IMG/VR virus record: IMGVR_UViG_3300027708_000220
Coordinates: 1-32,000 of that record
Length of the DNA: 32,000 nucleotides
Origin: a virus
Direction: 5' to 3' (one strand)
In this document: positions 6,462-25,995 of the stretch, piece by piece
Layout of the letters: the number at the start of each line of letters is the position of its first letter
How positions within the stretch are numbered: position 1 is the first letter of the stretch
Notes under the pieces: model-generated
Databases searched by the model: none
Seen by the model: the letters and a program-made list of their open reading frames with translations, nothing else
Told to the model about the DNA's origin: nothing
Translations under genes and position numbers: made by a program

Positions 6462-9400
6462 CTATCCATGATTTCCTCCATAATACCAAATATCTGGTAA
6501 TTGTGCGGGATTAGCTTGTAAAAACGTTGCAATACTATTAGTAGCTGTATTTAAATAACTCCATTCTTCAAATGAAGTTGTTTCTTTTTTAATAATTGTT
6601 ACCTTGATATTAGGTTTTACTCCATCTATTATATTTAAAGTTAGCAAGTGTGTTGATGTGCTAATACTAAATTCGGGTGGCAGATAATTTAGTCCTCTAT
6701 AAACATACCCGTTTACAGCATCAATTGATAATGAATTTTCATATATCCATACTTGACCTGTTTCGACTACATGGTAAGCATCTCCTACGTTGGCCGATAG
6801 CGGAAGTAAATTTACAGTAGATGTTGTCATTATAGCCTGCTCGGATATAAGATTATCGTCATACGACAACAGGGTATCTTGAACAAAGATTCCTGCTTTT
6901 CTAAGAGGTCTTCCACCGTAAAATACTAGAAGCTGATCAATTGCCGGTACACCAGAATTTAATACTATCCCGTCATTTAAATTAGTAGATGTAGTATAAA
7001 TTTGATATGTGTCTGTTCCAGTTGTTATAAAAGATTGTTTTAATGTAGTTTCTTTAAATGGTATTAGTTGTTCGTAGCTTTGATCGATCACTGTTGTACC
7101 AATTTCAAGAATGTTGCTTGGACTTGTTCCTAAAGTGCCTCTACGAAGCTGACTCAACGTATTTCCGGTTATTTGGAAAAATTCAATTCTTTCTCCTTCG
7201 ATTATTACAACACCTGGTATTTTTTTAGAAACAATCGGGCGAGTTAATGCCAGAACATTATCAACATGTATTTCAGTATCTGTCACTAATAACGGCTGAG
7301 ATAATTTTGTAGAATTTTTTACAGTTAATCTATCAAACTCAGTTCTATTAAAAATATCGTTAAACATTCTGAATCCCACAACTTCGGCATTTAATCCCTG
7401 GTCACTTAGGCTAATAATTTCTACACGATCATTTAATGTTAGATTGTAACGAGTACTTAATTGTACAGTTACTCTATCGTTTAACATCGTATAGTCGAGT
7501 GTGTTAATTAACGGGACACCGTTTACAATTACCCAAATGTAATTGCTGTTTAATACAGGGCGGTCAGTTTTAAATCTACCTAATCCATTTCCTAAATATG
7601 TAGTAGTTTCAATTGCCATATTATCGTGGTTAGTATAAGTTATTACATTTATGCTGGCATTTGTGACAGGACTAACTAAAGTAAGTTGAGATCCTATTAA
7701 ATCATAATCGTAATGTCCTAACGGCAACCATAATATAGCAATAACATCATGCATTGACAATTGACTATTAATTTTTACAGTATTTTTATTTACATTAACT
7801 GTAACCTCTGGTCCATTTCTAAGTTGTTTTCCATTTAGATAAACTCTAACTGCTGGAACGCTGTAATTGTAAAAATAAAAATATACAGTATCTCCTGAAT
7901 TTAAAGGAATTAAAGTTTTTTCACTAAAATAAACTTCGTTGCTGATATAATCAACATCACTGATAATAACATTTGTATTTGCGCCAAATAAATCATTATC
8001 AGTTGCCACAATTACTTTGCCGGGGTGAAAATTTTCCACAGATTGAAATTTTAAAACATTTAATCCTATTGTACTATCCGTAACCACAGTGCCTACTACA
8101 TAAGGAACATAATATTTTTCTTGTGGATCTATCAAATATGTAGTTATTCTAGGATCTGTAATATTGTAATAGGTAACCGGCGGTGGTAACATAATTTTAA
8201 AACCGGTTCCTGTATCGATTTCAACAATCGCCTGAACTGCTTCCGGAAGAATAATTCCAGGCGGGTGAGATAACTCGAAGACAGACTGCGGATTACTGTT
8301 TATAACAAATGATTGTTGATTAATTTCATTAAACAATTTATAAGAATTTCCAAAAAACCAAGCATGTATGTTATTATTGCCTGTTGGTAAATTATAAACA
8401 GTTGCGGCGGCTCTATTATTATTTTCACTAACTGATCCTAATTCAAAATAGATATAAGAAGCAGATGACGAGGCATGAAATCCTAACGGTTCTTTAGAGA
8501 CATTTACTCCATTTACATAAACAATTGCATCCTTGACCGTATCAATATCGGATAAACTTTGTACTTGACCCGTAGTTGCAGTATTTGTATTTGTAAATGA
8601 AGCTGATGCATCATCAATGACTCCTCGATATGTTCCGTATGCTTCCCCGCCAATGCTTACAATTCTATAACCAATATTTCCGCCCTGAGATTGAGGACTG
8701 ACTATTAACGCATTATTAATCCAATCTATAGTAAATTCTGTAGAATCAATATATTGAGTAAAGTCTGTATTAGTACTGTAACTAAAGAGTTTATTTTTAT
8801 AGTAAACTGAAATACTAGCAGGATCGGTTGGCCGTATCGGTAAAGTTATAGTAGTTGTTGTATTTAAATTCAATGGAGCATAACTAGAAATTACCGTAGG
8901 AGCACTTTTATCATTTATAGAATAAACATTTAAAGAAAAACTATCTGATATGTGTCCCGGAACAACTTCCTCAGGGGCATGACCATAATCGGGCGTATAA
9001 AATCCAGAACCGTCTATATTAATATCTTCTGGATTGATTCCCAAAGGATTAGAAATTATTCCATTATCCCAAGTACCGCCTGTTATGTTACTGTCGTATA
9101 AAGAAGAATTTGAATCAAAAGTCCAAAATTCAACAACATCTCCTGTGTCTACTTCTGTAATAAAAAACGAACTTAAGGTTACTTGAGAAGTATCGTTGTT
9201 GATGCTTACAACTGTTACGTCAATACTGGGATCTAATTTAACCGATCGCGTTGTTTTACCTACAATATTAACCAATTGACCGATTCGAATATTTTTTGTA
9301 CTGTCAACTGTTATTTGATTATAATTAATAATACTTGTTAAAGTTTGTTCATCGTTTCCGTAACCTCTAAAAATACGTTGTCCTTTTGTATCACCTAGAT

Positions 9401-12400
9401 TAACGGCATTAATTCTAGAGTCGTACAAATAAAAATGATTATCATCTACTACTCTTACATAATAAATTTTATTATCAAATAATCCGTCAATTGCTATTAC
9501 CCCGTTAACTGAATATCGAACAGACATTCCGGTTAAAAAATTGTGGTCGAGTATTGAAATTATATTAGTATTTAGGTCAATCGCACTTGTAGGAATTATA
9601 ATAGCAGTTCCTGTTCCCGGAGCCGGTACTGATTCTGTAACAATAGATGAATTGTAATAATTAGAATTATCTGAAAATATATCTTTTCCAAAAATAGATG
9701 TATTTTGATCCCAAATTAACGTATAATTAAAAGGTAGCGACTGGATAGATGTTTTGGGAAAATCTATGCCTGTCATTAATTGGCCTAATTCTAACCCGGG
9801 CATTCCGGAAGTTGCGGTATAAAAATTTAATATTCTTTCCGTAGCATTAAACATTTTTATATTTTTATCATACGTGACCGATAACACCTGCCCCACTGCT
9901 GGAATATACTTTGTAAAAACAATTTTAGAAAATTCTTTAGAATAATTGTCAACTATATCAGTGTAAATTTCAATGTTAAAATCCGATGAAAGAACAAACG
10001 ATCCATCTAATGTAACTGCCGTTTTTATTTTTGTAGTATTGGCTAACCATTTTAATGTAAATTCGCTTGTATTACCATCACATCTAAATGTATCTACTGC
10101 CGAAGTTAATTCAAACGAATTATTAGTTCCTACCCGGTCAAATTTCATTCCTATTAAATTATTTCTAATAGTATTGTTAGCCAGTTGTGCATAAGCAACA
10201 GCAGGAACTATGCCCGGTGTTGAACTTTGTATTATTACGCTAGGCGCTGTTAGATAATTAGCACCAGGCGATAATACAACTATCTTACTAATTTGTCCAC
10301 CAGTAATATACGCTTCGGCCGTTGCGCCGGATCCCGGATCTCCGGGAGCAGATTGAATTACAACTGTTGGCCTAGATGTGTAATTTTTTCCCGGATTACC
10401 AACAAGGATACTATCGACTTGGAATGTATAATTATTGGCCCACGATTTCCACGGGTAGGTATTTAAAATAGGATCGCCTACTACAATACTTTGATATAAG
10501 CCTGTGGCGGTATTATATACTGTAGGTAAATCAAAATCTGTAATGTAAGACTGGCTCGGATCAACATAGGTATAATTAGTTGTATATTTTCTAATTTGAG
10601 TATGATAAGGTTTAATTTCGGAAATATAATTAATAAAGTATGTGTCGTCCTGCAATTGATATACTGAACGCTGATCTAAATTTCCAGCGTAATTTACAAC
10701 ATTTATAAAACTTGTTTTAAATGCCCAATCGAGTAATTTTTGTTCTGTTAACGCATATTTTACAGCGTTAAAGAAAAATAAATTCCAGCAAACTTTTAAT
10801 TCGCCTATGAATATGTCATTTTTTAAAGCATTTAAAATATTTACTAATTCAATATCAGCGGTTTGATCAAATAGTGTTTGATCGTAGTTTACAGCACTGT
10901 AGGTTAAATTTCCCGAAGATAGCGACCATAACGTATCTAATAATTGTATTGTACCGTTTTGTTTGAAAACTAAATTATAATCGTTACTAAAGGTTCCGTT
11001 TCCTAAAATTGTTTTTTCTAAAATCAAATAATTTCCATCGCCGCCGTTGAATATTTTAACATATTGATTAGGTAGAACATTTACTAACGATGAAAGATAA
11101 TTTAAAGACGCTATTGTAGCCGAATATGGAATATATTCATTAAATGTACTAGACTTCCAATCTATATATTTCCAATAAAGGGTAGTATTATACAATTGAG
11201 TGTAAACTTTAATCCATTGGTTCGATTGTTTATCCCAAGAGAACATTGCCCATTTACCGTTGCTATCGGCATCAGTTAACACTAAAACAGAATAAGGACG
11301 AATTTCGAGTATAGGCGCAGTTACGTATTCGCTACCAGGATTAATTATTTGAACCGATACAACAATGCCGGATGAATTAATTGCTGTTTCTATAACTGCT
11401 CCCGTACCATTGTCGCTTGCAATAATTGTAACCTTTGGTGCTATTTTATAACCAAAACCGGGATCAACTATCTTGACTGAAATAACTTTTCCATTATCAA
11501 CTGTACAAGACAATTTAGTCTGTTGTAATTTAGTTGTGTTTATAAGGTTAAGAAATTCTAAATCTTCAACCACCCGGTCATATGTATTAGAAAATTGATC
11601 GGGGGGAGATTCTTGAGAAGTTAAATTTTCAAAATTATAATTTCCAGTCAGTTGATTAGAAAGCAAAACAGTATTTGCAAAAGTAATTAAATTACGCAAT
11701 GCGGCATTTCTATCAACAAACATGCTTTGACGAGGACGGATATTAATACCAAAGGATAATCTTTTTGACAGTGCTGGATCAGGAACAGGATTTCCAAGAT
11801 TGTCGTGTCCTCGTAAACTATCAATTAATTTTTTTTCTAACATAGTATTAGGCTGACTATTAACATTGCCCTCTTGTAACAACAGCCATTCAGTATGCTT
11901 GTTAATATTGTTATTAGTATTATCGAACGCAATATTTAAATTTATATTGTTAGAAACTAATTCTGATCCAATATTAGCCAATGATATAGCAGAAGGAGCA
12001 ATAGGCGAAATAAACTTATAACCGTAGCTTGCTGGATCGGCTATTAAACTAGCAATTTCAAATGTACTTTTTCTTCTATTTTTTGTTTTAGGAACTGTAA
12101 TTTTATTTTTTACCCAATAGTAATAAAAATTAGTAAATCCTCCAGAAGAATTATAAACTTGTTTTACAGCCATGACACTGCCATCGGGATATTTAGGCTG
12201 ACCGCTTATACTTTCAACCAGTCCTGTTGTAGTGTCTGCTAAAACACTCCATTCGCTAGGTAGATATTTTGTACCTACCCATTCATACACATCAATAGTT
12301 GCTCCCGGAAAAAGATTACCCCAATGATTTTTTCGATAAATTAGTTCGCCTTGTTCATACCACATATATTTTACAGTGCTTAAATCCCACCACAATTCCC

Positions 12401-15400
12401 CAACATGGTCATCCAGCCAACTGGTATTAGTATTAACATTTACTCCTAGTGAGCCTATAGAATATATTGCAGGATCATATGATGAAATATATTTTAATTC
12501 TTCACGGGCTAATCCTGCAATTTTTCCTTTAACCGGATCAATAACATCTAAGTAATCAACAATTTTTTCGCTAACTGTATCTATTAAAGACACCTTTTGA
12601 AATTGAGTTACATCTACAGAATCTGGCTGAAATCTTAATTTTTGCCAACTGTTTAATGTGTTATCATTTTTTATAAATTGAAAGACCGTTCCGTATTCCG
12701 TAGGCGACAATGACGTGGGCGGAAATGGTGCTCCAACATAAACAATATTATCGTCAACTTGTAAACTAGTTCCGTAATCTGAATCAGCAACTACACTCGG
12801 AGGGCGCAATTCATCGGCTAACGCAAATCTGCCATATTGTTCTGTTTTATTATAAAGGTAAACAGACCCTGCATTTCCTACAAAATCAACTATTCTTGTT
12901 TCGTTTGTATCAAATGTCATTTGTCCAATATTAGAAGAGCTGTCAACAGTTGCATGCTGAGGAGTATTACCGCCTAACGATGATATTACTAAGGTATCTA
13001 TAGCGGTATTGCAGTCTATTGCACTTCCAAATTTCATACCTACGCCGGCTTGCGGATTAACAATACTGTGATTAAAGACAAAGACTCCGTTGGAGTTGGT
13101 AAAAACAGAAACTGCACCGTACGAATTATCAATATTTTGATACAACGGTGCAGATATAAACAAATAATTACCAGTCGGGCTCATTTTTACTGCTGAACCA
13201 AATCCAGTATTAGTAGGATATCCTAAATCAACGCCATGTATAGTTTGTAATAAATTTAATGTATTGTTTAAAAATTGATAGATAGAAACGAAACCTGCAT
13301 TAGCACCAGGGGCACTAATTGCAATATAGTTTGCAGTATCGGATCCGCTTATTACATTACCCCATAATGATCCGATTGTTAAATTATTTCCCGGGGTAAC
13401 TGTTCCATTATATTCTAACTGGACCGGAGATTCACTTGTATCAAGTTTATAAGAATATACAACTCCGGTTCCTGTAGTTGTTGTTCCGGGGGCACCGACT
13501 AATAATAATTTATTAGATTGAACAAATATCGAAGAACCAAATCTTTGATAATTGTTTGACGTGTTAGGGCTTAATAAAACGTATTCTGTTTTTTGAGACA
13601 ACGATCCTGATATTTTGCTACTAATTTTTACAATCCCTTCTTGTACCAATGTAGATACCGTACCTGTGCCGGTTGACTGTCTTAACCCGCCCGCTGGCGA
13701 ATTTGAAACAGTCTTTCCTGTTCCAGGAGCACCGACAAACATTAAACCAAATTTTGTATTGTTAAAGTTAGTGTCATCATACGCCATTGCCAATCCTGCT
13801 TCAACAGGATCAGTTGAATGATGGTATGTGACTGATGTATAACCATCCTGATTAATGCCGTAGCTAAAAGATATTGTAGTTGCCGATGTAGCTATATCGT
13901 AAACAAAAATTGTTCCAGAGTCGTGGGGGGCCGCTACCATTAAGACGTTTCCGTTTTTCTTTTTGGCCAATGTTCTGCCAAATTCTAAAACTGTGGGACT
14001 GCGGTTTACGATCGAAGTGCTGGTAAAGTTTTGAATTTTTTGATAAACAGCCCAACGATCTTTACCGTCATTATCAATCCATAACTTTACATTATACGGC
14101 AACCTCAATAATTTATTATCTTTAGGAATTTGAGAAAATGTTGCAAATCGTTGACTAAAAAATTTAAAAAGTAAACCAGGAGAAAGTAAAGGTTCGTTGT
14201 TAATGACTGTTAACTGCGATGATACTGTAATTTCTGTTAGGGTGGGAATATCGATAATACGATAAACACCATTTACCTGCGCATTAAATTGTGTACAAAA
14301 AACTATATCGCCAACTGATAACGAGTGACGAATATTAGTAGTAAAGGTAATTGTATATCCGGGAGAGCTGACATAAACTCCGATAATTTTTACACCAGCA
14401 TTTTCATATCTTAATACGTCCCAGTCTCCGTTAGCTTTAAATCCTAACCAAACAGTTGTTCCTTCGGGCAAAGAAGTAGACGCTATATCTAATAAACTGT
14501 TTTCATTATAAGCAGTAGCAGTAACGTCATCAATTCTCACGTAACCTGCGGTGTTTACTAAATTAGCAGTACCGGTTGTTGCAAATACAGAATTTATATT
14601 AAGGTCGGTGGGCGTAATTTGTAAATCACTAGGAAGTACTGTAACAGTTACACTGCTTGTTTGTATAGAATTAGTTGCAGTAAATTCAACAAGTTGCGGA
14701 TTTTCTAAAAATGTACCTTCTGTCAAAGGAAATTCAATTTCTTGATAACTAGAATAAGATCCGTAAACTCCGACCCTAAATGCCCACTCTTCCGAATAAT
14801 CTACTGTACCCTGATTATTAAATATACTTGCTTTAGAAAGTTTTGATATAGGATTTTTTGTTCCTTTTTCTTTAATGTACCCTTGATAAAATTTATATTG
14901 AGCAATTGAATCGCTAAAGATACCATTTAAATACGGCCTTGGCGTATATCCAGTTAAATGTTGAGCTAACTTTTGTTGGCCTGCATCAAAATTATCTATG
15001 TTTAAATTATAAAAATCTTGGAATTGTGTAATTTTATAATCAAAATTTGGAATTAATCCAGGAGTAGGTACTTTATCTAACAATACCCAACCATCTGTAA
15101 CATTAAACGAGGCTGATCCAGGTATATTCTGTTTTGCAGAATAATATTTTCCATTAAAACTTATTGTATCTGCATAAAAATAATCAACATACTGGGCCCA
15201 TATACTTACATTAGAGACATCATAAACAAATCCCGGACTTGAAAAATTTCCATCCCAGCCCGCAGTGCGTAGTCCGGATAATTTAACACGCAGTTGTCTG
15301 TAACCGGATTGAATATCAAATATTGTATCATTAAATAAACTAATATTGTTTAAAACCATTCCGTGTTCTTTTTGTACTGGTCTTAATATAGCAAAATAAA

Positions 15401-18400
15401 TTCCTTGGCTGGTATTATTTGTAGTAATCGTACAAACGCCGCCTTGCCTATTTACAGAAAGATGTTTTTGAGAAAATGCAGTTCCGTCAGATCGTAAAAT
15501 TCTATATTCATAAAAACTATCATATAGATTATCAACTACTGCGACGGGAGATTGAAATTTAATTGTATCAGCAAATGGACTTAAAGTTATTAAACTATTA
15601 TCCACCCAGTTTTGACTAGTCCAAAATAAAAATTCTTTTCCGGTAAAATTCCAATCTAATATTTCACCCACATCTGTGTTGTATTCGTCAAATATAAATC
15701 CTATACTTTCTAAATAATTTCCGTAGCCTATTAAAAAATCGTAAACTTCTTGAATGGTCGAAAACGCTGTTCCGTAAGGAACTTTTGTAAGTTGGCTAGA
15801 AAATCCGGTGGATCGCTGAACTGTGACTCCTCCAACTGTAGGTAATTCAGGAAGTTGAATATACAAAGATTCATTAAACACATTTTCTGGAGTATGACTA
15901 ACTTTTACTCTATAGAATTTGCTATTGTAAGAAACAATTTGACCTTGTGTATAAAACAATGTGTTTATCGCTGACTTAGCTGTTGTGGTTTCAGATTGTG
16001 TTAGTCCGGTTGGGCCTGCCGAAGAACCCGAACTCCATGTTACGTACGGTTCTGAAATTCCACCGACCGTAACAACAGGAGTAGAATTATTTCTTATAGG
16101 TTGATAAACATTAAAAAATCCAGTAGTTTGATCGTAACCTTTAACTATAAACGACCCGTTTGATTTTTGTATAACAACTCCGCTTATATTAGCGGTTTCT
16201 ATAGGACTGCTTACATTTAAAAATAAGTTATAATCTTCGGGAGGTAGTATTGCTCCCGGATCAACTGATGTCGGATTATATGCATCGATAGTAACAGTCA
16301 TATTGTTTTTGCTTATAAACCCGCCAACTTTATAAAATAAATTAAGATTAAAATAAGTTAAATCATTTTTTAATTCAGTAATATAATTGTCGTTACGTTT
16401 TTTTCCATATTCAACAACATACACTCCGTAACCGCTGGTTAAATTTCCGTTGTCGCCGTGAATTGCAATATTTTTAGGATTTAAAAATTGTTGGTCACTG
16501 CCATACGTCCATTGTCCTGCTATGTTAATGTTCATTCTACTTGTATCATATAATAAAGAAGCATATATAGAAGGTTTAGTCAATGCTAATAGTCGTTGAA
16601 CTGCAAAAGGATAAAAACTACTTTTACGCCACGCTGTTTCAACAGGACCTTGATCACCGAACTTAAAAGAATTTCTTATAGAATAAGCAGTTGTATTATA
16701 TAGTAATTGGCTAGGTGGTATTAACTCGCCGTAGTCAGTAACTGGTAACATATTGTATAAACCCGGTCGTGCATAAACTGGGTTGCCGCCGCCAGTTTCT
16801 ATATAATCCCACAATATTTTATTTCCCGCTGTATAAGGGGCTGATCCGTATGTATTTTCCCAATTAGCAGGTTTTTGAAAAACTCCTATCATTTCCCAAG
16901 GATGTGTATGAGGGCGATCAGTATCGTATAATGATTTATATATGTTTCTCCAATAACCCGATAGTTGTACATTTCCGTCGGTAGATACCGATCCTGTATA
17001 GTTCCATGTAAACGGATTGAATTCATCAAACGTAGTATTTGTAGAATAATCTATACCGAAGATTCCTGCCCATTTAATAAAATCAATTTCTAATATTTGA
17101 TTTATGTCGGAGGCTGAATAATCTGTATTTCTAAATCTACCGGGTAAAACTGAATTTATTTCGAATAATTCTGAACGGTATTTTGTTTTTATATTGTTAT
17201 AAATTCTTTTTTCAAGTTCTAAAATAATTTGATCTCTATAATCATTGTATGCTATAGTGATACTACCATCATGTCCTTGAATTACCGTTTGAGGAATTGC
17301 ATAAGTGTCGTCGACGTAGATACTAGGAACAAATGCCGGATACAATCCTAATTTTGTCGGAGTGCTAGGGATATAACATCTAGAAGTATCTTGGTAATCG
17401 TTTATTACAATAATATCGCCGACTCGCAAAGGAATTAAAAATTCGACCGCGGAGTCGACTGATAAAAAAGCATAATCTGTATTGACAATTAATTGCTTTC
17501 CATTAAGGTACACTAAAACAGATCGTAAATTTAGTGTCAATAAATCAAATGCACTAGATAACGGATATATTGTATTCCTAGAATCTGTTACCGAGAATGT
17601 TCTAACAATTTTATCTTCTCCATATCCTATCATATCTGATAAAGAATATGATGCAATATTAGTTTTATTTTGATTAATTGCAGTCATAGCACTGTCGACT
17701 GCTGAAACATAATCAGTTTGATCGGGCTGTAATTCTAATTGTTTTAAAAAAGATAATTTAAATTGATTGTATTGTTCTGCCGCATCTTGAACAGCATTTA
17801 TTAGATTATGGTATTTGTCGCCGATGAAGAAAAGAGCAAACGGTAAAGGATTAGCATTTGAAATTAACTGTGTTCCGGGGAAATTGCCTAAATCTCGTAA
17901 ATTACTTTCTCCAGGAAATATTCCTGAAAAATTAGGAATAGTATCGATTGTAGTTTTAACATGATTGGTTATTTCAGTTTCTGTCATGTTACTAATAGGA
18001 CCGTTTAACGGGTTATTGGTTAAGGACAAAGGGATTTGATAAAATCCTATAGGATTTGGAACAGCGTTACTATTATAGATTTTAATTAATACATTTGAAT
18101 AGGCGGGAATCGGGTCATTAAAATGTATAAAATAATTAGCCGCCGATGTTGATGTTGAATATTGTGTATTTTTAAATTTTATCTCGTTTACGTATACATC
18201 AAAATTAAATTGGGTTGTTACTGGATTATTAATTGCAGTTAACTGTAAAGTTGATGTTGAAATTGTAGTAGATTCAAATTGTAAAATAGGAATTGAGGTG
18301 TGAAATGATTCTTCCCAAACGTTTACAAATTTACTGGTTCCGTTAGAAACATATTTTAAATATGTGTTAGCAGTAGGCACACTAGTTAATATATTATTAT

Positions 18401-19910
18401 TAGAAATAGTAATTGTTTCTGTCATAAAATAATTGTTAAACAAATAACTTCCTACACCTACGCTATTTTTATATTGTAGGGGGAAACCTAATATTGAATC
18501 AACCGCACCTGTACCTATTGCGTAATTAAAAATTTGATTTCCAAAAAAATCCGACTGATAATACGCAGTATCGCTGTAGCTGTTTCCTGTATTATCAAAC
18601 AAATCAAATAAAGGAAACTGATTTAATTTTTGATGTTGTTGAGAAAAAATCCAATACCTACCGTCATAATGCCACGTTGTGCCCTTATACGTTTTTCCGT
18701 TGCTAACAACTATAGACGATTCCGGTGCCGGGCTATTGTCTAATAATAATTGTATTTGATAAACATCATTTACCTTAGCAAAATTAACAATATAGATATT
18801 GCCACGAACTTGTATATTTTTATCTGCATTAAAAATTATTCTATTGCCTTGTTCTAAAAGAACTCCGTCTATAAAATATCCCTCGGAGCCTTCTATAGTA
18901 GAAAACGCATTAGTTGTATCAGTATCAATAATATCTACTTTAGAAATTCCAACAGTTCCAAAATTATATAGTTTGAGATTAGCATTAAATTCAACAATAG
19001 GACGCTGTGCCCTGCTACTAGCGGAAATTACTGGAACTACACCATTTACTATTGCACTTATTGTTATAATGTCTTGATGAAACCATCTATTATATCTAGT
19101 CCAAGGATTTAAATCTCGGCTAGCTCGATTAATAGTAATATAATCAGGAGTGATCGGTACATCGCTAAAATAATCGTACGGATATTGATCAAAAGGCGTA
19201 GCATCAAAATTATCTGCGACTGCAGGATTTATTATTCCTGATGCGGAAACTGTATTGTAGTCAACCAACACAATTGCTTTTCCAACTCCTTCAACAAAAT
19301 ATGTTTTATTTTGATATTTTTGAGAAACTACATCCGAAGTGAATTGAATTTTCATTCCATTGGATAACGCCTGTGTTGCTGTTGTTCCGATAGTAGTTAG
19401 GTAACTAAATGTATAATTAGATTGACCTACAATATCAACATCGACATTTATATATCCGTTAATTGTTCCTATAGAAATTACACTCGGCCCAGTTGGTAAC
19501 CAATAATATTTTTGGTAGTTTGTAAATTTATCCCAGTTGATATGCGGGTTGTAAGAATAAATTGGGGAACTGTATAATTTGTTAAAATCGGCTGGTAGCC
19601 CACTTTGAATTGATATGTTGTTTGTTAAATCGTCGATTCCTATTGCTCGTTGTATATTGTTTGATTCATCATATATTACCAGTGCAGGGTTAAATTGATA
19701 ATCTTTACGTATTTCTAAAACATCCGGAATGTAAGTATCGGCTGTAGAATTATAGTTTGGAGATAATTTACTACCAATAAATCCGCTAATCCTTTCTATT
19801 TGTGCCGGTTGTATTAATTGATCAAGCGAACTTGATAAAAATTTATTATTTTTATCTGTTTGAAAATATTCTGGTAATAAATTAGCTGAATTGATATTAT
19901 CGGTTGACAT
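6462..19910 (-). CDS. Giant baseplate/tail structural protein with FG-GAP propeller
   Basis: This is one uninterrupted 4482-residue frame located just after gp6, the position of T4 gene 7 (about 1030 residues). The ATG follows the gp6 stop by one base and has a GGAAA ribosome binding site. The N-terminus (LLPEYFQTDKNNKFLSSSLD) is of the type found in large marine T4-like baseplate proteins. Residues about 1975-2420 contain seven FG-GAP-like blades with cores VLMVAAP, LMFVGAP, LLLVGAP, YIAISAP, YLFISAP, TLVISS and IVYVGAP. Paired beta modules with PGxxY motifs occur near 2800-2870 and 3160-3240. A conserved block (DWAFKTSFIN, EIKPYHTQIRKY) lies near 3060-3110, YLNGKQL modules occur near 800 and 3990-4060, and an IEGERIEFF/QLRRGTLGTS block near 4240. 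There is no signal peptide or membrane segment. It is probably a wedge component acting with gp6, gp25 and gp53. Equivalence to gp7 is inferred from gene order only. Confidence 0.88.
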   Translation of the reverse strand: MSTDNINSANLLPEYFQTDKNNKFLSSSLDQLIQPAQIERISGFIGSKLSPNYNSTADTYIPDVLEIRKDYQFNPALVIYDESNNIQRAIGIDDLTNNISIQSGLPADFNKLYSSPIYSYNPHINWDKFTNYQKYYWLPTGPSVISIGTINGYINVDVDIVGQSNYTFSYLTTIGTTATQALSNGMKIQFTSDVVSQKYQNKTYFVEGVGKAIVLVDYNTVSASGIINPAVADNFDATPFDQYPYDYFSDVPITPDYITINRASRDLNPWTRYNRWFHQDIITISAIVNGVVPVISASSRAQRPIVEFNANLKLYNFGTVGISKVDIIDTDTTNAFSTIEGSEGYFIDGVLLEQGNRIIFNADKNIQVRGNIYIVNFAKVNDVYQIQLLLDNSPAPESSIVVSNGKTYKGTTWHYDGRYWIFSQQHQKLNQFPLFDLFDNTGNSYSDTAYYQSDFFGNQIFNYAIGTGAVDSILGFPLQYKNSVGVGSYLFNNYFMTETITISNNNILTSVPTANTYLKYVSNGTSKFVNVWEESFHTSIPILQFESTTISTSTLQLTAINNPVTTQFNFDVYVNEIKFKNTQYSTSTSAANYFIHFNDPIPAYSNVLIKIYNSNAVPNPIGFYQIPLSLTNNPLNGPISNMTETEITNHVKTTIDTIPNFSGIFPGESNLRDLGNFPGTQLISNANPLPFALFFIGDKYHNLINAVQDAAEQYNQFKLSFLKQLELQPDQTDYVSAVDSAMTAINQNKTNIASYSLSDMIGYGEDKIVRTFSVTDSRNTIYPLSSAFDLLTLNLRSVLVYLNGKQLIVNTDYAFLSVDSAVEFLIPLRVGDIIVINDYQDTSRCYIPSTPTKLGLYPAFVPSIYVDDTYAIPQTVIQGHDGSITIAYNDYRDQIILELEKRIYNNIKTKYRSELFEINSVLPGRFRNTDYSASDINQILEIDFIKWAGIFGIDYSTNTTFDEFNPFTWNYTGSVSTDGNVQLSGYWRNIYKSLYDTDRPHTHPWEMIGVFQKPANWENTYGSAPYTAGNKILWDYIETGGGNPVYARPGLYNMLPVTDYGELIPPSQLLYNTTAYSIRNSFKFGDQGPVETAWRKSSFYPFAVQRLLALTKPSIYASLLYDTSRMNINIAGQWTYGSDQQFLNPKNIAIHGDNGNLTSGYGVYVVEYGKKRNDNYITELKNDLTYFNLNLFYKVGGFISKNNMTVTIDAYNPTSVDPGAILPPEDYNLFLNVSSPIETANISGVVIQKSNGSFIVKGYDQTTGFFNVYQPIRNNSTPVVTVGGISEPYVTWSSGSSAGPTGLTQSETTTAKSAINTLFYTQGQIVSYNSKFYRVKVSHTPENVFNESLYIQLPELPTVGGVTVQRSTGFSSQLTKVPYGTAFSTIQEVYDFLIGYGNYLESIGFIFDEYNTDVGEILDWNFTGKEFLFWTSQNWVDNSLITLSPFADTIKFQSPVAVVDNLYDSFYEYRILRSDGTAFSQKHLSVNRQGGVCTITTNNTSQGIYFAILRPVQKEHGMVLNNISLFNDTIFDIQSGYRQLRVKLSGLRTAGWDGNFSSPGFVYDVSNVSIWAQYVDYFYADTISFNGKYYSAKQNIPGSASFNVTDGWVLLDKVPTPGLIPNFDYKITQFQDFYNLNIDNFDAGQQKLAQHLTGYTPRPYLNGIFSDSIAQYKFYQGYIKEKGTKNPISKLSKASIFNNQGTVDYSEEWAFRVGVYGSYSSYQEIEFPLTEGTFLENPQLVEFTATNSIQTSSVTVTVLPSDLQITPTDLNINSVFATTGTANLVNTAGYVRIDDVTATAYNENSLLDIASTSLPEGTTVWLGFKANGDWDVLRYENAGVKIIGVYVSSPGYTITFTTNIRHSLSVGDIVFCTQFNAQVNGVYRIIDIPTLTEITVSSQLTVINNEPLLSPGLLFKFFSQRFATFSQIPKDNKLLRLPYNVKLWIDNDGKDRWAVYQKIQNFTSTSIVNRSPTVLEFGRTLAKKKNGNVLMVAAPHDSGTIFVYDIATSATTISFSYGINQDGYTSVTYHHSTDPVEAGLAMAYDDTNFNNTKFGLMFVGAPGTGKTVSNSPAGGLRQSTGTGTVSTLVQEGIVKISSKISGSLSQKTEYVLLSPNTSNNYQRFGSSIFVQSNKLLLVGAPGTTTTGTGVVYSYKLDTSESPVQLEYNGTVTPGNNLTIGSLWGNVISGSDTANYIAISAPGANAGFVSIYQFLNNTLNLLQTIHGVDLGYPTNTGFGSAVKMSPTGNYLFISAPLYQNIDNSYGAVSVFTNSNGVFVFNHSIVNPQAGVGMKFGSAIDCNTAIDTLVISSLGGNTPQHATVDSSSNIGQMTFDTNETRIVDFVGNAGSVYLYNKTEQYGRFALADELRPPSVVADSDYGTSLQVDDNIVYVGAPFPPTSLSPTEYGTVFQFIKNDNTLNSWQKLRFQPDSVDVTQFQKVSLIDTVSEKIVDYLDVIDPVKGKIAGLAREELKYISSYDPAIYSIGSLGVNVNTNTSWLDDHVGELWWDLSTVKYMWYEQGELIYRKNHWGNLFPGATIDVYEWVGTKYLPSEWSVLADTTTGLVESISGQPKYPDGSVMAVKQVYNSSGGFTNFYYYWVKNKITVPKTKNRRKSTFEIASLIADPASYGYKFISPIAPSAISLANIGSELVSNNINLNIAFDNTNNNINKHTEWLLLQEGNVNSQPNTMLEKKLIDSLRGHDNLGNPVPDPALSKRLSFGINIRPRQSMFVDRNAALRNLITFANTVLLSNQLTGNYNFENLTSQESPPDQFSNTYDRVVEDLEFLNLINTTKLQQTKLSCTVDNGKVISVKIVDPGFGYKIAPKVTIIASDNGTGAVIETAINSSGIVVSVQIINPGSEYVTAPILEIRPYSVLVLTDADSNGKWAMFSWDKQSNQWIKVYTQLYNTTLYWKYIDWKSSTFNEYIPYSATIASLNYLSSLVNVLPNQYVKIFNGGDGNYLILEKTILGNGTFSNDYNLVFKQNGTIQLLDTLWSLSSGNLTYSAVNYDQTLFDQTADIELVNILNALKNDIFIGELKVCWNLFFFNAVKYALTEQKLLDWAFKTSFINVVNYAGNLDQRSVYQLQDDTYFINYISEIKPYHTQIRKYTTNYTYVDPSQSYITDFDLPTVYNTATGLYQSIVVGDPILNTYPWKSWANNYTFQVDSILVGNPGKNYTSRPTVVIQSAPGDPGSGATAEAYITGGQISKIVVLSPGANYLTAPSVIIQSSTPGIVPAVAYAQLANNTIRNNLIGMKFDRVGTNNSFELTSAVDTFRCDGNTSEFTLKWLANTTKIKTAVTLDGSFVLSSDFNIEIYTDIVDNYSKEFSKIVFTKYIPAVGQVLSVTYDKNIKMFNATERILNFYTATSGMPGLELGQLMTGIDFPKTSIQSLPFNYTLIWDQNTSIFGKDIFSDNSNYYNSSIVTESVPAPGTGTAIIIPTSAIDLNTNIISILDHNFLTGMSVRYSVNGVIAIDGLFDNKIYYVRVVDDNHFYLYDSRINAVNLGDTKGQRIFRGYGNDEQTLTSIINYNQITVDSTKNIRIGQLVNIVGKTTRSVKLDPSIDVTVVSINNDTSQVTLSSFFITEVDTGDVVEFWTFDSNSSLYDSNITGGTWDNGIISNPLGINPEDINIDGSGFYTPDYGHAPEEVVPGHISDSFSLNVYSINDKSAPTVISSYAPLNLNTTTTITLPIRPTDPASISVYYKNKLFSYSTNTDFTQYIDSTEFTIDWINNALIVSPQSQGGNIGYRIVSIGGEAYGTYRGVIDDASASFTNTNTATTGQVQSLSDIDTVKDAIVYVNGVNVSKEPLGFHASSSASYIYFELGSVSENNNRAAATVYNLPTGNNNIHAWFFGNSYKLFNEINQQSFVINSNPQSVFELSHPPGIILPEAVQAIVEIDTGTGFKIMLPPPVTYYNITDPRITTYLIDPQEKYYVPYVVGTVVTDSTIGLNVLKFQSVENFHPGKVIVATDNDLFGANTNVIISDVDYISNEVYFSEKTLIPLNSGDTVYFYFYNYSVPAVRVYLNGKQLRNGPEVTVNVNKNTVKINSQLSMHDVIAILWLPLGHYDYDLIGSQLTLVSPVTNASINVITYTNHDNMAIETTTYLGNGLGRFKTDRPVLNSNYIWVIVNGVPLINTLDYTMLNDRVTVQLSTRYNLTLNDRVEIISLSDQGLNAEVVGFRMFNDIFNRTEFDRLTVKNSTKLSQPLLVTDTEIHVDNVLALTRPIVSKKIPGVVIIEGERIEFFQITGNTLSQLRRGTLGTSPSNILEIGTTVIDQSYEQLIPFKETTLKQSFITTGTDTYQIYTTSTNLNDGIVLNSGVPAIDQLLVFYGGRPLRKAGIFVQDTLLSYDDNLISEQAIMTTSTVNLLPLSANVGDAYHVVETGQVWIYENSLSIDAVNGYVYRGLNYLPPEFSISTSTHLLTLNIIDGVKPNIKVTIIKKETTSFEEWSYLNTATNSIATFLQANPAQLPDIWYYGGNHG

Positions 19911-19911
19911 T

Positions 19912-22900
19912 TTAATTTCCAGCGTTAGTAATAATTGTTGTAGAATTTAATTGACTCGCAGTAATTGCATCAATAATTTCAATATTACTCGTAGTTGCTC
20001 CACTTATAAATATTTCATTATTTGCACACGTCACTTCGTACAAACTTCCAAAATTATTAATGGTTGGCACCAAAATAAAATTAGTAATATCTGGGGTTAG
20101 TAAATTCATTACATACGTAGATAGCTCGCTAAAATTAAAAGTTTGACCAAACTCCCAATTTTCTAAAGCAAAGAAGTAATTAATAGCATCAAAAATTTTA
20201 GTAATTAATTCGTTATTGCTAACAACAGAATTAGAATTTTTCACTGCCTTAAATTTTCCTTGTAAATTTATATTTGCTTGGTTGCCAAATAATATTTTAT
20301 AATTTACAGGATGATAAACTATCTCGTCGCTTATGGTTTTAATTGGTTGTAATACCGAGTCAAAACTATTTGCTAACTCTTGGCTAGTTGGGGGTAAAGG
20401 TGCGGAACCAATCTGTGTCCTTAACCAGCTCCTATAAGAACTATCGTAGCTAGAAGTTAACATATAAATGTCCATAATATTGCTCTTACCGGGATCAATT
20501 CTTCTTTCTTCGCCGCTATTGTGTACATAATGAAATTTTAATCCACTACGTCCCGGATACGCAAAGTAATCAGGTTGATATATCCATCCATTACCGGTAT
20601 TGTAGTACTGCTGTACCGAATAAAGTTTAACTATGTTTAATAATCGATCGCTAAAATAATATAATCGACCGTCAACCGGATCAACCACATCTGTTTCAAC
20701 TTTAGCAGAGGTTGCTATAATCGGAGTTGTTGTTTGATTAACTAATTTATATCGTACTCCGTCGGATAATTTTTGAAAATATACAAAATTAAATGCGCCG
20801 ACAATTTTTGTAAACGTATCTGGTTCAGAAATTTGTCCGGAATTATTATAGTCGTAAAAACTAACTAACACTTTTGATGGCTCAATATAACCATCCGGCT
20901 CAATGATATAATTATCTATCTGTAAAGAGTAGTCTTTGTCAAGGCTTGTACGTACAGATGGTTGTGTGTTAAAAGAAAGAATGTCAACTTTGTCTTTTAC
21001 AACTGTATTATTTGTATAATCAAAATTTACGTCGGTTGGATCAATATAAAAGCCAGTTTCTTTTTCACTTTCAAAAATATAATTTGTATATCTATGTAAA
21101 ACTTTATACTTATTATTTTGCCATGTAAACGCAACTAACCAGCTTGAGTCTAAATTAGCCCCGGTGGAATCTCCTTGATAATCTAAAGAAAAAGGATCTA
21201 TTAAATTTAAATTGATATTAGAAATTATATTCCAGTTTCTAGTAATTGCACTAAAACTTAAACCAAAATTCTTTTGAGCTAAACATAAATTTGCTAACTG
21301 ATTTTCAAAATTGTAAGAATATACCGTGTCGAATATAGGAATAACCTCTATTGGAGTATATCCGCTAGGCACTATGTTATTTAAAATAATAGGACCGGTT
21401 CCGTCACTTAATACTCCAGCGCCGGAATTACTGCCATTTCCTATTACCTGCATTACTGTAGACCAAATGTACTCAGTACTGTTTACTTTTTGAAATTTAA
21501 TTAAAGCTCCCGGAGTTATGTAATATAAATTATTTGAAACACCCGCACCTACACTAACTGCTAAAAGATTAGAGTCGCCTAAATTTTTAAAATATCCTCT
21601 AGAACTTCCAGAAACGTTATTGACCTGTTGCCAAATTAAATTATAGTAAGAAAGATCGGGTCTATTATAATTATCAAAATAAAAAGATCTCATTGCAGTT
21701 GATGCAACCAGTGGCTCTAATTGATTTTTAATTACTCCTAATATATCATTTTTGTTGGTAAATGAAAATTCAAAATTTGATTGGAATTGATTTTTGTAAA
21801 ATACCCCGTCAGTGGCAAAAATATTTGTTTTACTATACTTACCGCTAACATCACTTAATTCAAAATACTTACTAAGTCCACTTACTACCCGAGCAACTGA
21901 TTTTATTTTTAATATATTTGTACTAGCAGTTAACGGAGCAATATTATAATCTTCGCCTGTTACCATTCTATTTTGTGTATAATATGCCTGAGGGGCTTTT
22001 TGTTGTATACTTGCATTTGTTTCTGCTGGAGCACTATTTGATACAGTGTATTGCAATCCTAAAACTAGTGTTAAGTTATGCGATTGACCGTTTTTATTGG
22101 TATAAGGGATTGTTACCGACACACCAGTCATTTGCTCAGGTTTAATACCATAAGAAAGACCGTTACTTTGTCTGTATAATAAATTAAAAGTTCCTTTAGG
22201 CAAATTGCCAAAGCTACCGTCGGCAAAATTTAAATCAATCTGATCTTGATCTCGTGTGGTAACACTGTAAATATTTCGCTGACTTACATTTAAAGAATTG
22301 TATATAATATTATTGCCAACTAAATTAGGAACAGGAGTCCATAAATTACTATAATTATTATTGCTGTCTAATTGCCATAACCATACATCAATATTATTAA
22401 TATCTGTTACATTAATACCAATTAATTCGTTAGGCACAGGATTGTCTATTGTAAATTTAGATAGTCCTAAGTTACCTTGTCGAAAATGTACAAAAAATCC
22501 GGTATTGCTACTGCCCGATCCTTGATTATCATTTTGGTATAAAAAACTAAAGTTAGCCCCCGGAACTGGCGCGGCTTCGTATACTGTTGTTGATTGGCTA
22601 AACGTACAAGGAACAACTTCAAAATTAGTCGGTGTTCCGTTTATTGTTTTGTTAAAAGAAAATATTGGAACATTTGTGTTATTACTATTAATTGCATATT
22701 GTTCGGTTAATATTCCATTTATAGTCTGTCTGCCCAGTGGGGTTCCGAATACATAAGAACCAGACATAGCAGAATTAATTATTGTTAAAAACTGATTATA
22801 CCAATTTTTATTTGTAGAATCGTTCCAACCTACTACAGAACTTGATAAATTATTTCCACTCGAATCGTAAACATTATCAGTCGTTGCTATTGCCGTTATT

Positions 22901-23253
22901 TTAAGAAACCCGTTAGCTGGTACGTTTCTAGTAGGCACATAACTAATTAACTGTGCAAGTTGTAAAATACTATCTCGGCGTTGTGCTGTTTCTAAAAAAT
23001 TTTCACGAGCATTGAGATCAATACGAAAACTTAAATTTTGACCTAGATAAGCAATTAAATCAATAAGAGCAATATATTCACTACTGTTAATATAATCATT
23101 AAAATTTTCTGGATAATTCTGCTGAAGATATTGAATCATTACTCGTCGAATGGTTTCAAAGTCGTAACTTTGAAAGTCAGCATTTCGATAACTTTGATAA
23201 ATTTTAGTCCAATTTTCTGCTACAAGCAATTGATTTTTAGTTGATGGAATCAT
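19912..23253 (-). CDS. gp6: Baseplate wedge protein gp6
   Basis: The gp6 family forms the dimeric ring of the contractile-tail baseplate wedge and belongs to the baseplate J-like group. The N-terminus is highly characteristic: a Tyr/Phe-rich start followed by IRRVMIQYLQQNYPENFNDY (about residues 36-55), then LIDLIAYLGQNLSFRIDLNA and ARENFLETAQRRDSILQLAQ around residues 70-100. A J-like core motif, MVTGEDYNIAPL, lies near residue 433, and the C-terminal wedge-type region near 1000-1060 includes FFALENWEFGQTFNFSEL. The protein is 1113 residues against 660 in T4, so it carries large insertions, mostly in the middle. The start lies 21 bases after an AATAAATA late-promoter-like octamer, with only a weak AGAG as ribosome binding site. 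Its stop is followed after one base by the ATG of the giant protein, consistent with coupled synthesis of wedge partners. Confidence 0.93.
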   Translation of the reverse strand: MIPSTKNQLLVAENWTKIYQSYRNADFQSYDFETIRRVMIQYLQQNYPENFNDYINSSEYIALIDLIAYLGQNLSFRIDLNARENFLETAQRRDSILQLAQLISYVPTRNVPANGFLKITAIATTDNVYDSSGNNLSSSVVGWNDSTNKNWYNQFLTIINSAMSGSYVFGTPLGRQTINGILTEQYAINSNNTNVPIFSFNKTINGTPTNFEVVPCTFSQSTTVYEAAPVPGANFSFLYQNDNQGSGSSNTGFFVHFRQGNLGLSKFTIDNPVPNELIGINVTDINNIDVWLWQLDSNNNYSNLWTPVPNLVGNNIIYNSLNVSQRNIYSVTTRDQDQIDLNFADGSFGNLPKGTFNLLYRQSNGLSYGIKPEQMTGVSVTIPYTNKNGQSHNLTLVLGLQYTVSNSAPAETNASIQQKAPQAYYTQNRMVTGEDYNIAPLTASTNILKIKSVARVVSGLSKYFELSDVSGKYSKTNIFATDGVFYKNQFQSNFEFSFTNKNDILGVIKNQLEPLVASTAMRSFYFDNYNRPDLSYYNLIWQQVNNVSGSSRGYFKNLGDSNLLAVSVGAGVSNNLYYITPGALIKFQKVNSTEYIWSTVMQVIGNGSNSGAGVLSDGTGPIILNNIVPSGYTPIEVIPIFDTVYSYNFENQLANLCLAQKNFGLSFSAITRNWNIISNINLNLIDPFSLDYQGDSTGANLDSSWLVAFTWQNNKYKVLHRYTNYIFESEKETGFYIDPTDVNFDYTNNTVVKDKVDILSFNTQPSVRTSLDKDYSLQIDNYIIEPDGYIEPSKVLVSFYDYNNSGQISEPDTFTKIVGAFNFVYFQKLSDGVRYKLVNQTTTPIIATSAKVETDVVDPVDGRLYYFSDRLLNIVKLYSVQQYYNTGNGWIYQPDYFAYPGRSGLKFHYVHNSGEERRIDPGKSNIMDIYMLTSSYDSSYRSWLRTQIGSAPLPPTSQELANSFDSVLQPIKTISDEIVYHPVNYKILFGNQANINLQGKFKAVKNSNSVVSNNELITKIFDAINYFFALENWEFGQTFNFSELSTYVMNLLTPDITNFILVPTINNFGSLYEVTCANNEIFISGATTSNIEIIDAITASQLNSTTIITNAGN

Positions 23254-23305: not shown

Positions 23306-23743
23306 CTACAATACAGTAAGTCCTATTTCTTGATTAAAATTTAATTTTAAAGTACTCGATTGATCTGTGCCTTTTAGTAATAAGGTTAACTCTATCAAGT
23401 ATCCTTGATCATATTCATTTAAATCTATTTGTAAGGTGGTTACTCTAGGATCACTATTACATATTTGTTGAACATCATTAACTAATAAAGTCTTTACATT
23501 TTCAGTTAACGGTTCCATTAATAAATTCCATATAATACTACCGAACGCTGGATTCATAATCCTTTCGCCTTTTTTTGTATTGAATTGATTTATGATATCT
23601 TGTTTAACAATGTCAAAATCATACAATCTCGTATCAAATGTGTCGGTATTAACTGAACTAAATCCTTTATAAAATTGACTAGTTTGAATAGTGTTTTGAG
23701 ATTTGTTCGAATTGTTTGTAATTACTAAATTTTTATATGGCAT
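23306..23743 (-). CDS. gp25: Baseplate wedge protein gp25
   Basis: This 145-residue protein is a clear member of the GPW/gp25 family (T4 gp25 has 132 residues), which joins wedges to the sheath-initiating face of the baseplate. The diagnostic stretch near residues 55-77 reads KKGERIMNPAFGSIIWNLL and is followed by MEPLTE. A family-typical end follows, with ICNSDPRVTTLQIDL and a last beta strand. The N-terminus (MPYKNLVITNN, then FYKGFSSVNT) resembles other marine gp25 proteins, which supports the ATG at 23743 as the true start. There is no Shine-Dalgarno sequence before it. An AATAAATA octamer ends exactly five bases upstream, suggesting a leaderless late transcript. It lies between gp5 and gp6, so the neighbours are all baseplate parts. 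Confidence 0.95.
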   Translation of the reverse strand: MPYKNLVITNNSNKSQNTIQTSQFYKGFSSVNTDTFDTRLYDFDIVKQDIINQFNTKKGERIMNPAFGSIIWNLLMEPLTENVKTLLVNDVQQICNSDPRVTTLQIDLNEYDQGYLIELTLLLKGTDQSSTLKLNFNQEIGLTVL

Positions 23744-23760: not shown

Positions 23761-25995
23761 TTACTGAGCTCCGGTTTTGATAGGTTTACCACTACTGTCA
23801 GTCAAAATTCCATCGGTGCCGGTTTTTACAGTAGACCCTTTAAGTTGACCAAGGAAACATTCATACAATCCCTGTTTAGTAGCATGTATGTCTTTAGTAC
23901 AATACCCAACAGATTGTACCGCGGCTTCAAAATATGAAGGACTATCAAACGGCACTTTACATCTATCTTTCATATAAAGTGGAACAACTTTGGCCGCAAT
24001 TTTTGGATCAGCTAATAATTCTGGGTTGTTAACTAGGTCTACACCGGCCATTTTACCGTATCTAGTATAATTTGCCAAGCCGGTTAATTGAATATAACCT
24101 CTTCCTATATACGTTGTGCCGTCTCCGGGTTTTTTATTTCCTAATTCTTTTCCTTTAGGAGTATTGGATCCATACAATAGTTCTGGCAATTGATTTCCAG
24201 GATTTCCTACATATTTTTGAGCATACGCCGCATCTCCACGGAATACTCCCGGAAACACTGTTAATAATCTGTCGGCAGTGGTGTAATTAAAACTTTCAGT
24301 TACACAAGTCCAACGACTTTCGCCGCCGCATATTGCTAATATTGTAGCAAGAGCGTTTGTAGATGTAATTCCTTCGGCAATACAAGCATCTTTTATCATT
24401 TGTATACCGTTGCCTTTGGCACTGTTGATCATTTTTGCATATTTAGGATCACAAGTGCCAGGAGTAACTTCTGGGTAATTTGAAGGTGTTGTAGTCGATG
24501 CATTAGGATTAGGTGCTACATCGGATCGATTTTGTAAGGTGCTATCTGTCGAAGCCGAATTGTATCTTTGAACATCGGTATTTTCGTGTTGATCCCAAGG
24601 TTCGTGCGTTGGCACTCGTTGCATAATCGAAGTAAGAGTACCTGCTTTATAAAATTGTCCATTTTCCCAACCGCTATTACGATCTCTATTAGGTAAATTA
24701 TAAATTGGCAATTTTGATGGAAGCGTAGGCTGTTGGGCCACGGCTGCGGCTGGACCATTCATGTCAATTCTTGCGGCAGACTCCACATGATTTCCTGAAC
24801 TGGCTATATTGGTATCTCCTGCAGATGATAGAAATATGTTAGCCGCTGTTGCATGAAATCCTGCGCCGGCTACTGTTCTAGAACTTTGTCCAATTGTTTC
24901 GTGTTTGTCCTGTCTGATAGAAATTTTAGAATCTTTGTCAACAATTAAGTTATAATTGCCATCAATGTTAGCTTCTAAGTCGCCATTAGCAAACATATGA
25001 ATGTGCCGACCGGCTTCAAGATTTATATCCCGGCCTGCTCGAAAATTAAAATCGTTTTTAGAATGTATACTTACACTGTCTTCGGCATAGATGTCAATTT
25101 TGCCATTGCTGGTCATTTCTAACCATGCTGTTCCTTTACTGTTGGCAATATAAATTAAATCTTGACTATTGTGTAATAATATCTGATGTCCGGTTCTTGT
25201 TCTAATACGCACTAATTCATTTTGACCGTTAATATCTCCATCATCCATCACAAATGTTGTTCCACCTAATCGAGTAACCGGAATTCTTCGAGGTTGTTCA
25301 TTATCTTGTGTGTAACCTAGGTCGCCTTCTTGCGCACCCGGGCTTTGGTCAACCGGGCCCGGGGTCGATATACCGAACACATTACTTGGATGTTCTCTAC
25401 GAGCCGAACTCGAAGTAACTCCCCTAACTGTATCTAATAAAAGCCCTTGTTGTAATAATCTATCAGCGAAAGGATGTACAGGTTTTTTAAATGTTTCTAC
25501 GTTTGGGTTATCTAATTTTTTTGTTTTTTTATTAAATTCTGCAACAGGAAGCAACGTGGTACCGTATTTTCTTTTTTGATCTTCAGTCATATGCACTTGC
25601 TGACTAGCGGCAATTCCGGGAACCATATGATTTTGGAACATATCTTGTACGCACCCTATCCAGTATCCTTGATTAGGATCCCCGTCAATAAAAATACACA
25701 ATACTCTAGTTCCTATATCTGGAGGAACCATCCACATACCGTAACTTTTTTGAGCATGTTGAAAATTAGTTTCATCGTTCCCTTCAAATCTAACCGACAT
25801 AACTCCATAAAAAGGACTAAGATAATTTACAATATAAGTATCTGCTTGATTAATAGTTGCACTGTTTGGGATACCTTTAACCAATGCTACCTCAAGCCTT
25901 CCCATAAATGCAGGGTCAAGGTGACTTGTTATTTCTGCCATAAAGGGACCAGACGAAGGTAACTTACTTCTTTTTCTAGTATCAAACGATCCCAT
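23761..25995 (-). CDS. gp5: gp5-like baseplate spike with C-terminal GH19 glycosidase
   Basis: This 744-residue protein is the membrane-piercing spike at the tail tip, which binds the hub and opens the cell wall. Residues about 15-130 form an OB-fold of the gp5/VgrG kind (GRLEVALVKGIPNS, then GTRVLCIFIDGDPNQGYWIG). Residues about 250-410 give the repeated spike beta-helix (KIDIYAEDSVSIHSKNDF, then RDINLEAGRHIHMFANGDLE). After a Pro/Asn/Thr linker comes a GH19-type lysozyme/chitinase domain (about 515-725) with AICGGESRW, SFNYT and YIGRGYIQLTGLANYTRYG. Glu559 and Glu567 are the likely catalytic pair. T4 gp5 instead carries a T4-lysozyme-type domain between OB-fold and helix, so the enzyme class and its position both differ. 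The start has a GCGGA ribosome binding site and follows the hub gene after three bases. Confidence 0.9.
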   Translation of the reverse strand: MGSFDTRKRSKLPSSGPFMAEITSHLDPAFMGRLEVALVKGIPNSATINQADTYIVNYLSPFYGVMSVRFEGNDETNFQHAQKSYGMWMVPPDIGTRVLCIFIDGDPNQGYWIGCVQDMFQNHMVPGIAASQQVHMTEDQKRKYGTTLLPVAEFNKKTKKLDNPNVETFKKPVHPFADRLLQQGLLLDTVRGVTSSSARREHPSNVFGISTPGPVDQSPGAQEGDLGYTQDNEQPRRIPVTRLGGTTFVMDDGDINGQNELVRIRTRTGHQILLHNSQDLIYIANSKGTAWLEMTSNGKIDIYAEDSVSIHSKNDFNFRAGRDINLEAGRHIHMFANGDLEANIDGNYNLIVDKDSKISIRQDKHETIGQSSRTVAGAGFHATAANIFLSSAGDTNIASSGNHVESAARIDMNGPAAAVAQQPTLPSKLPIYNLPNRDRNSGWENGQFYKAGTLTSIMQRVPTHEPWDQHENTDVQRYNSASTDSTLQNRSDVAPNPNASTTTPSNYPEVTPGTCDPKYAKMINSAKGNGIQMIKDACIAEGITSTNALATILAICGGESRWTCVTESFNYTTADRLLTVFPGVFRGDAAYAQKYVGNPGNQLPELLYGSNTPKGKELGNKKPGDGTTYIGRGYIQLTGLANYTRYGKMAGVDLVNNPELLADPKIAAKVVPLYMKDRCKVPFDSPSYFEAAVQSVGYCTKDIHATKQGLYECFLGQLKGSTVKTGTDGILTDSSGKPIKTGAQ

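Follow-up and report, generated by a model that had tools for sequence, protein, structure and literature searches.

The window analysed in this study is a 32,000-nucleotide stretch of DNA (positions 1 to 32,000 of IMG/VR virus record IMGVR_UViG_3300027708_000220). Clustered on its minus strand are the structural genes of a myophage of the jumbo type, in the order gp5/lysozyme, gp25, gp6, and then an ORF of 4482 aa, which is adjoined by the gp6-like gene:

23761..25995, minus strand, gp5-like hub protein with a C-terminal GH19/chitinase-type lysozyme domain (E = 6e-7)
23306..23743, minus strand, gp25-like baseplate wedge protein (PF04965, E = 6.4e-9)
19912..23253, minus strand, gp6-like baseplate wedge protein (phrog_10646, E = 3e-285; Gp6-like_1st, E = 0.0018)
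6462..19910, minus strand, giant protein of 4482 aa (phrog_10938, E = 0, and matches to homologues)
14562..19910, minus strand, conserved N-terminal block of the giant protein, residues 1-1783 (blastp/tblastn to PA5oct, SCTP-2, Atu_ph07, RaK2, and Vibrio 2.275.O)
11661..12638, minus strand, conserved C-flanking block of the giant protein, residues 2425-2750 (the query that found the relatives)

Collagen triple-helix repeats (E = 1.5e-27) were observed in a tail-fibre-like protein at 2011-3957. At 31155-32000 lies a divergent gene for a late sigma factor (phrog_12791, E = 6.8e-84); in PA5oct, the late sigma factor is likewise divergent to the virion cluster.

Sequence comparison indicated that the 4482-aa ORF is homologous to the giant structural protein of the virion whose gene comes after gp6 in jumbo phages of the RaK2/PA5oct type. 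Its homologues gave E values from 5e-127 to 2e-31, covering 62-87% of residues 1-2003 in most of the matches listed. The giant virion proteins of RaK2, PA5oct, SCTP-2, and Atu_ph07 (phrog_10938) resemble the window ORF in their post-gp6 position, the gene being directly after gp6 in PA5oct, RaK2, and Atu_ph07, and in having conserved blocks on either side of the propeller site described below (approximately 24-37% identity to the window), but differ from it in having no FG-GAP propeller. In PHROGs, this family is assigned to the head and packaging category; against this category, the gene order favours placing the giant protein in the baseplate region. The preliminary description had called it a T4-like baseplate protein. 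Gene order agrees with this, as does a virion mass-spectrometry note in the annotation of the PA5oct homologue, whereas no match to T4 gp7 was obtained with hhalign (probability 0.1%, with one gp7 sequence as the template); the label "T4-like" is therefore positional.

The giant protein also contains G-x-G-Y ... P-T-V-x-I repeats at 11211-11570 and 10206-10433 (residues 2780-2900 and 3160-3235), common to it, Atu_ph07, and the giant protein of S-MbCM6. These G-x-G-Y-type repeats are probably the reason why many cyanophage records match its C-terminal half.

Between the two conserved blocks, seven repeat cores were located in one open frame on the minus strand, namely VAAP (residue 1992), VGAP (2059), VGAP (2138), ISAP (2198), ISAP (2252), ISS (2309), and VGAP (2392). 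All seven FG...(V/I)(A/G/S)AP repeats of the preliminary description were thus present where it had put them, within residues ~1977-2414 of the 4482-aa ORF. The domain had been placed at 12660-13990, which is the right place, with the limits now set slightly wider, from about 14036 to 12651 (residues ~1959-2420). The features of this region are as follows:

14037..14084, minus strand, first of the two hairpin arms in the host protein (LWIDNDGKDRWAVYQK, residues 1943-1958; from the flank-joined alignment to homologues that lack the propeller)
12651..14036, minus strand, inserted FG-GAP/integrin-alpha-type seven-bladed beta-propeller, predicted, residues ~1959-2420
14007..14027, minus strand, N-terminal strand, modelled as the outer strand of blade 7 and closing the ring (DSSP; integrin alignment from model residue 24-25)
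13860..13982, minus strand, blade 1 (FGRT...VAAP)
13572..13799, minus strand, blade 2 (LMFVGAP, long BC loop)
13635..13727, minus strand, blade-2 BC loop, the site of a nested CBM5/12-like module in distant relatives (after window residue 2081)
13398..13541, minus strand, blade 3 (FGSS...VGAP)
13236..13361, minus strand, blade 4 (WGNV...ISAP)
13059..13202, minus strand, blade 5 (FGSA...ISAP)
12807..13034, minus strand, blade 6 (FGSA...ISS, long BC loop)
12870..12974, minus strand, blade-6 BC loop with a T-F-D motif (D2334 invariant in alignment A2)
12669..12776, minus strand, blade 7 (YGTS...VGAP)
12621..12650, minus strand, second of the two hairpin arms in the host protein (residues 2421-2430; flank-joined alignment)

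The repeat is the same as that of the Pfam family FG-GAP_2 (PF14312; FG...hydrophobic-GAP...G-VYVY), although the window copy is divergent: the window segment alone scored 19.0-19.6 bits (E ~ 0.001), short of the curated Pfam threshold of 23 bits. FG-GAP_2 matched 11 of 13 family members at E ≤ 0.01, the best at 2.9e-16, and nine of 27 related records were above the Pfam cut-off. A 13-row family profile searched against the PDB matched integrin alpha-4 at E = 9.5e-12. Pfam scans of single blades gave a signal too weak for use, and Kelch_3 also matched blade 3 weakly. A single-blade HMM was built from relatives only, with the window, L006, and L007 left out. Window residues 1936-2426 scored 110.8 bits with this HMM, the best of 500 shuffles 9.8 bits, and the propeller-less homologues at most 3.7 bits. 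Five blades were detected singly (i-E from 1e-4 to 1.5e-11), and blades 2 and 6 as fragments only.

Structure prediction with AlphaFold2, using alignment A2 (13 sequences) as the input, gave a model with seven four-stranded blades (pLDDT 84, pTM 0.87), the last of which was closed by the N-terminal strand according to DSSP. The blade-6 BC loop (model residues 380-409) was poorly modelled. Integrin alpha chains were the top Foldseek matches, and VIA-align to integrin alphaM gave Z = 34.7 and rmsd 3.2 over 369 residues (model residues 25-491). Because the integrin alphaM alignment begins at the first residue of its chain, the ring appears to be closed by the N-terminal strand, as in integrins. 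Thus, the profile matches and the predicted closed seven-bladed ring both support the preliminary reading of the segment as an FG-GAP propeller, and computation identifies residues ~1959-2420 as a predicted seven-bladed beta-propeller of the integrin-alpha (FG-GAP_2) type. Seven FG-GAP blades and N-terminal-strand closure are shared with the propellers of integrin alphaM, alphaX, alphaV, and alpha4; the window propeller differs in that it sits within a viral protein and has 15-19% identity to them. Integrin alpha chains bind calcium through DxDxDG motifs in AB loops of their final blades; no such motif was found in the window propeller, so integrin-style chemistry is not to be assumed. Integrin thigh/calf-type domains gave no Pfam match in the 4482-aa protein, and we know of no integrin-beta-chain-like partner of the propeller.

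The insertion site was defined by comparison with cultured homologues. Homology of the window to these stops near residue 1783-1845 and restarts at ~2425, and between the conserved blocks they have 100 to ~1530 residues of unrelated sequence; no FG-GAP match was found in their giant protein. A LamG-like segment of SCTP-2 at this site was a by-eye impression, to which Pfam gave no match. When the propeller was removed, the window flanks could be aligned with PA5oct, SCTP-2, and Atu_ph07 across a W-x-V ... W hairpin, the turn of which is empty in these three phages; for RaK2 and Vibrio 2.275.O, the alignment was confined to the C flank. The flank-joined alignment indicates that the propeller fills the hairpin turn, and on this computed evidence it is one module inserted in a beta-hairpin turn of the giant virion protein.

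Scanning IMG/VR with the conserved C flank yielded 30 loci. When the propeller by itself served as the query, the scan retrieved no relatives, and tblastn with the window and L009 propellers gave no matches in 50,697 phage records. Conservation in alignment A2 was too low to supply a pattern for scanning bacterial genomes or viral contigs. FG...AP repeats were present upstream of the C flank in L006-L032, which are uncultured relatives of the window, several of them near-identical; L033 and L034 have no ring, and the sequence of L035 begins too late to show its presence or absence. PF14312 matched at E ≤ 0.01 in 18 of the 27 records tested, the match in Atu_ph07 being in a separate gene and not in the giant protein. 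Distances of the propeller and the flank were correlated (Mantel r = 0.86, p = 0.0005), which indicates that the insertion is old and co-inherited; by this computation, vertical descent has preserved it in a single clade of uncultured jumbo phages. In every pair involving the window, the propeller had diverged more than the flank; identities of the window to L006 and L007 were 61 and 69% in the propeller and 83 and 82% in the flank, respectively. Giant-protein residues 3151-4100 diverge about as much as the propeller, and the faster divergence is therefore not special to the propeller, being similar in some C-terminal regions.

In propellers, the BC and DA loops lie on one face, which is the ligand face in integrins. 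Among the relatives, AB loop lengths were near-constant, and the widest ranges were those of loops 1BC (4-79), 2BC (30-76), 6BC (31-133), and 3D-4A (15-138); an exception to the BC/DA pattern is the CD loop 3C-3D, which also varies strongly (5-55). Modules of a chitin-binding type (CBM5/12) were detected in the propeller region of distant relatives (L018, 1.2e-9; L026, 1.6e-13). In L017, L018, L020, and L028, an insert was located in the BC loop of blade 2, following window residue 2081. Despite its insert, the L020 domain was again modelled as a propeller (pLDDT 74), for which integrin alphaM gave Z = 29.0 and WD40 rings scored only slightly lower. A CBM5/12-type match also occurs within the window giant protein (E = 0.0078, Pfam). 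Such matches in phage virion proteins do not imply sugar binding. The blade-6 BC loop of the window and its relatives has a conserved T-T-F-D ... T-F-D motif, in which Asp 2334 is invariant.

The propeller is most likely a surface-binding or module-presenting platform, of which the binding is what we infer. The explanation toward which we lean overall, by a modest preference, is that a hairpin-borne ring would be shown at the tail tip as a non-enzymatic binding platform for the host surface. Because the ends of the ring appear to adjoin, the hairpin could carry the domain and leave the giant host protein undisturbed. The propeller would be displayed from the tail-tip region and serve in binding rather than catalysis. 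On the face equivalent to that which binds ligands in integrins, the BC and DA loops would change in length or take up nested modules for carbohydrate binding, and through them early contacts would be made with glycans or proteins of the host surface, the AB-loop side staying constant. Its presence at one site across the uncultured clade makes the propeller a good candidate for a host-touching part. Counting against the binding-platform view, homologues of the giant protein function without a propeller. Moreover, a fixed internal partner would explain the retention throughout the clade and the invariant D2334 motif as well as a changing host receptor would.

Such a partner is the basis of the chief alternative, to which we give a substantial but minority share of belief: the ring would be an internal docking platform, a rigid protein-protein ring within the baseplate (holding, for instance, a short tail fibre or an adjacent wedge) that makes no contact with the host. 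Beta-propellers commonly act as protein docking rings, and docking would suit a ring that occupies one site throughout the clade and is inherited together with its flank, as well as the conserved T-F-D loop of blade 6 with its invariant D2334. Yet PA5oct, with flanks that are 37-39% identical, and RaK2 do without it, its length-variable loops are mostly on the one face that accepts carbohydrate-binding modules, and it evolves faster than the adjoining blocks.

A passive spacer, or a neutral and merely tolerated insert, would account for the cultured homologues that lack the propeller and have unrelated sequence of widely differing length at the site; we consider this improbable, since the ring is not degenerate and its architecture and core motifs are kept at ~30% identity across the clade. 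Slightly more improbable still is an enzyme, such as a propeller-type polysaccharide lyase or hydrolase acting on the host capsule. Some polysaccharide lyases do have beta-propeller folds, and a GH19-type domain is already present in the hub protein encoded in the window; however, the closest structures are integrins and not lyases, and glycine, proline, and aromatic residues predominate at the near-invariant positions, where polar residues are few and a common catalytic set is absent. An enzymatic function was judged unlikely, as no catalytic-looking cluster was seen among the conserved residues. A fortuitous likeness or a propeller of another type (WD40, Kelch), which the sub-threshold Pfam score of the window alone and the weak Kelch_3 match of blade 3 might suggest, has next to no probability and is refuted by the strong FG-GAP_2 matches in relatives, the integrin alpha-4 profile match, the lead of integrins in the Foldseek and VIA lists, the VIA alignment itself, and the failure of shuffled sequences.

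FG-GAP propellers are known as adhesion domains in animals and bacteria. A 2024 paper regards FG-GAP in viruses as nearly unreported and describes an algal virus as possibly the first confirmed case (PMC11467894). Among the papers searched, those combining FG-GAP with phage terms included none about phage tail proteins, going by titles and abstracts. The structure matches of the propeller include many giant viruses of eukaryotes, and through the structure match to S-TIM5, FG-GAP proteins of phages were reached. S-TIM5 gp054 (407 aa, six FG-GAP repeats, annotated as virion structural), the "hemagglutinin" of Atu_ph07 (a 393-aa FG-GAP_2 protein beside tail-sheath genes), and ORF127 of Vibrio nt-1 ("FG-GAP repeat protein") are stand-alone genes, unlike the window propeller. 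The "TolB" of S-SCSM2R is an FG-GAP protein beside tail-fibre genes. FG-GAP rings are thus also carried by cultured phages under vague names.

Synechococcus phage S-MbCM6 (L044, JN371768.1) is closer in arrangement. Its protein 080 (7022 aa, 630-21698), located directly after gp6 and annotated as "gp8 baseplate wedge", has one internal FG-GAP array, with PF14312 matches within codons ~4440-4710. Homology between this protein and the giant protein of the window was considered and rejected, as only short G-x-G-Y-type repeats match besides the weak FG-GAP similarity. This limited likeness suggests that the propeller was probably acquired independently. With propellers in S-MbCM6, S-TIM5, Atu_ph07, and nt-1, that of the window is a variant and not the first of its kind in phages. 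Here, the FG-GAP ring is inserted at a fixed position in a giant protein of the virion, across a clade of uncultured jumbo phages. It is a real and well-supported variant of a known domain, and its binding function is a proposal.

If the propeller binds the host, part of host recognition would move to the baseplate region, and a concrete, expressible domain would be available for testing. More tentatively, and as a possibility that we hold to be somewhat doubtful, the ring could be a built-in tail-tip adhesin chassis, in which evolution exchanges or extends the ligand-face loops, or equips them with modules that bind glycans, to tune host recognition. Part of the adsorption specificity would then reside on a fixed protein of the baseplate cluster and not on a tail fibre, and similar rings would have entered the giant gp6-adjacent proteins of cyanophages independently.

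Multiple FG-GAP repeats were also observed in Sinorhizobium phage Phosso (L048, PV764938.1), in which 42 FG-GAP_2 matches occur at ~48-69 kb. Most of them lie in two very long frames, of 3702 and 3182 aa, and the number of matches would suffice for several seven-bladed rings in series.
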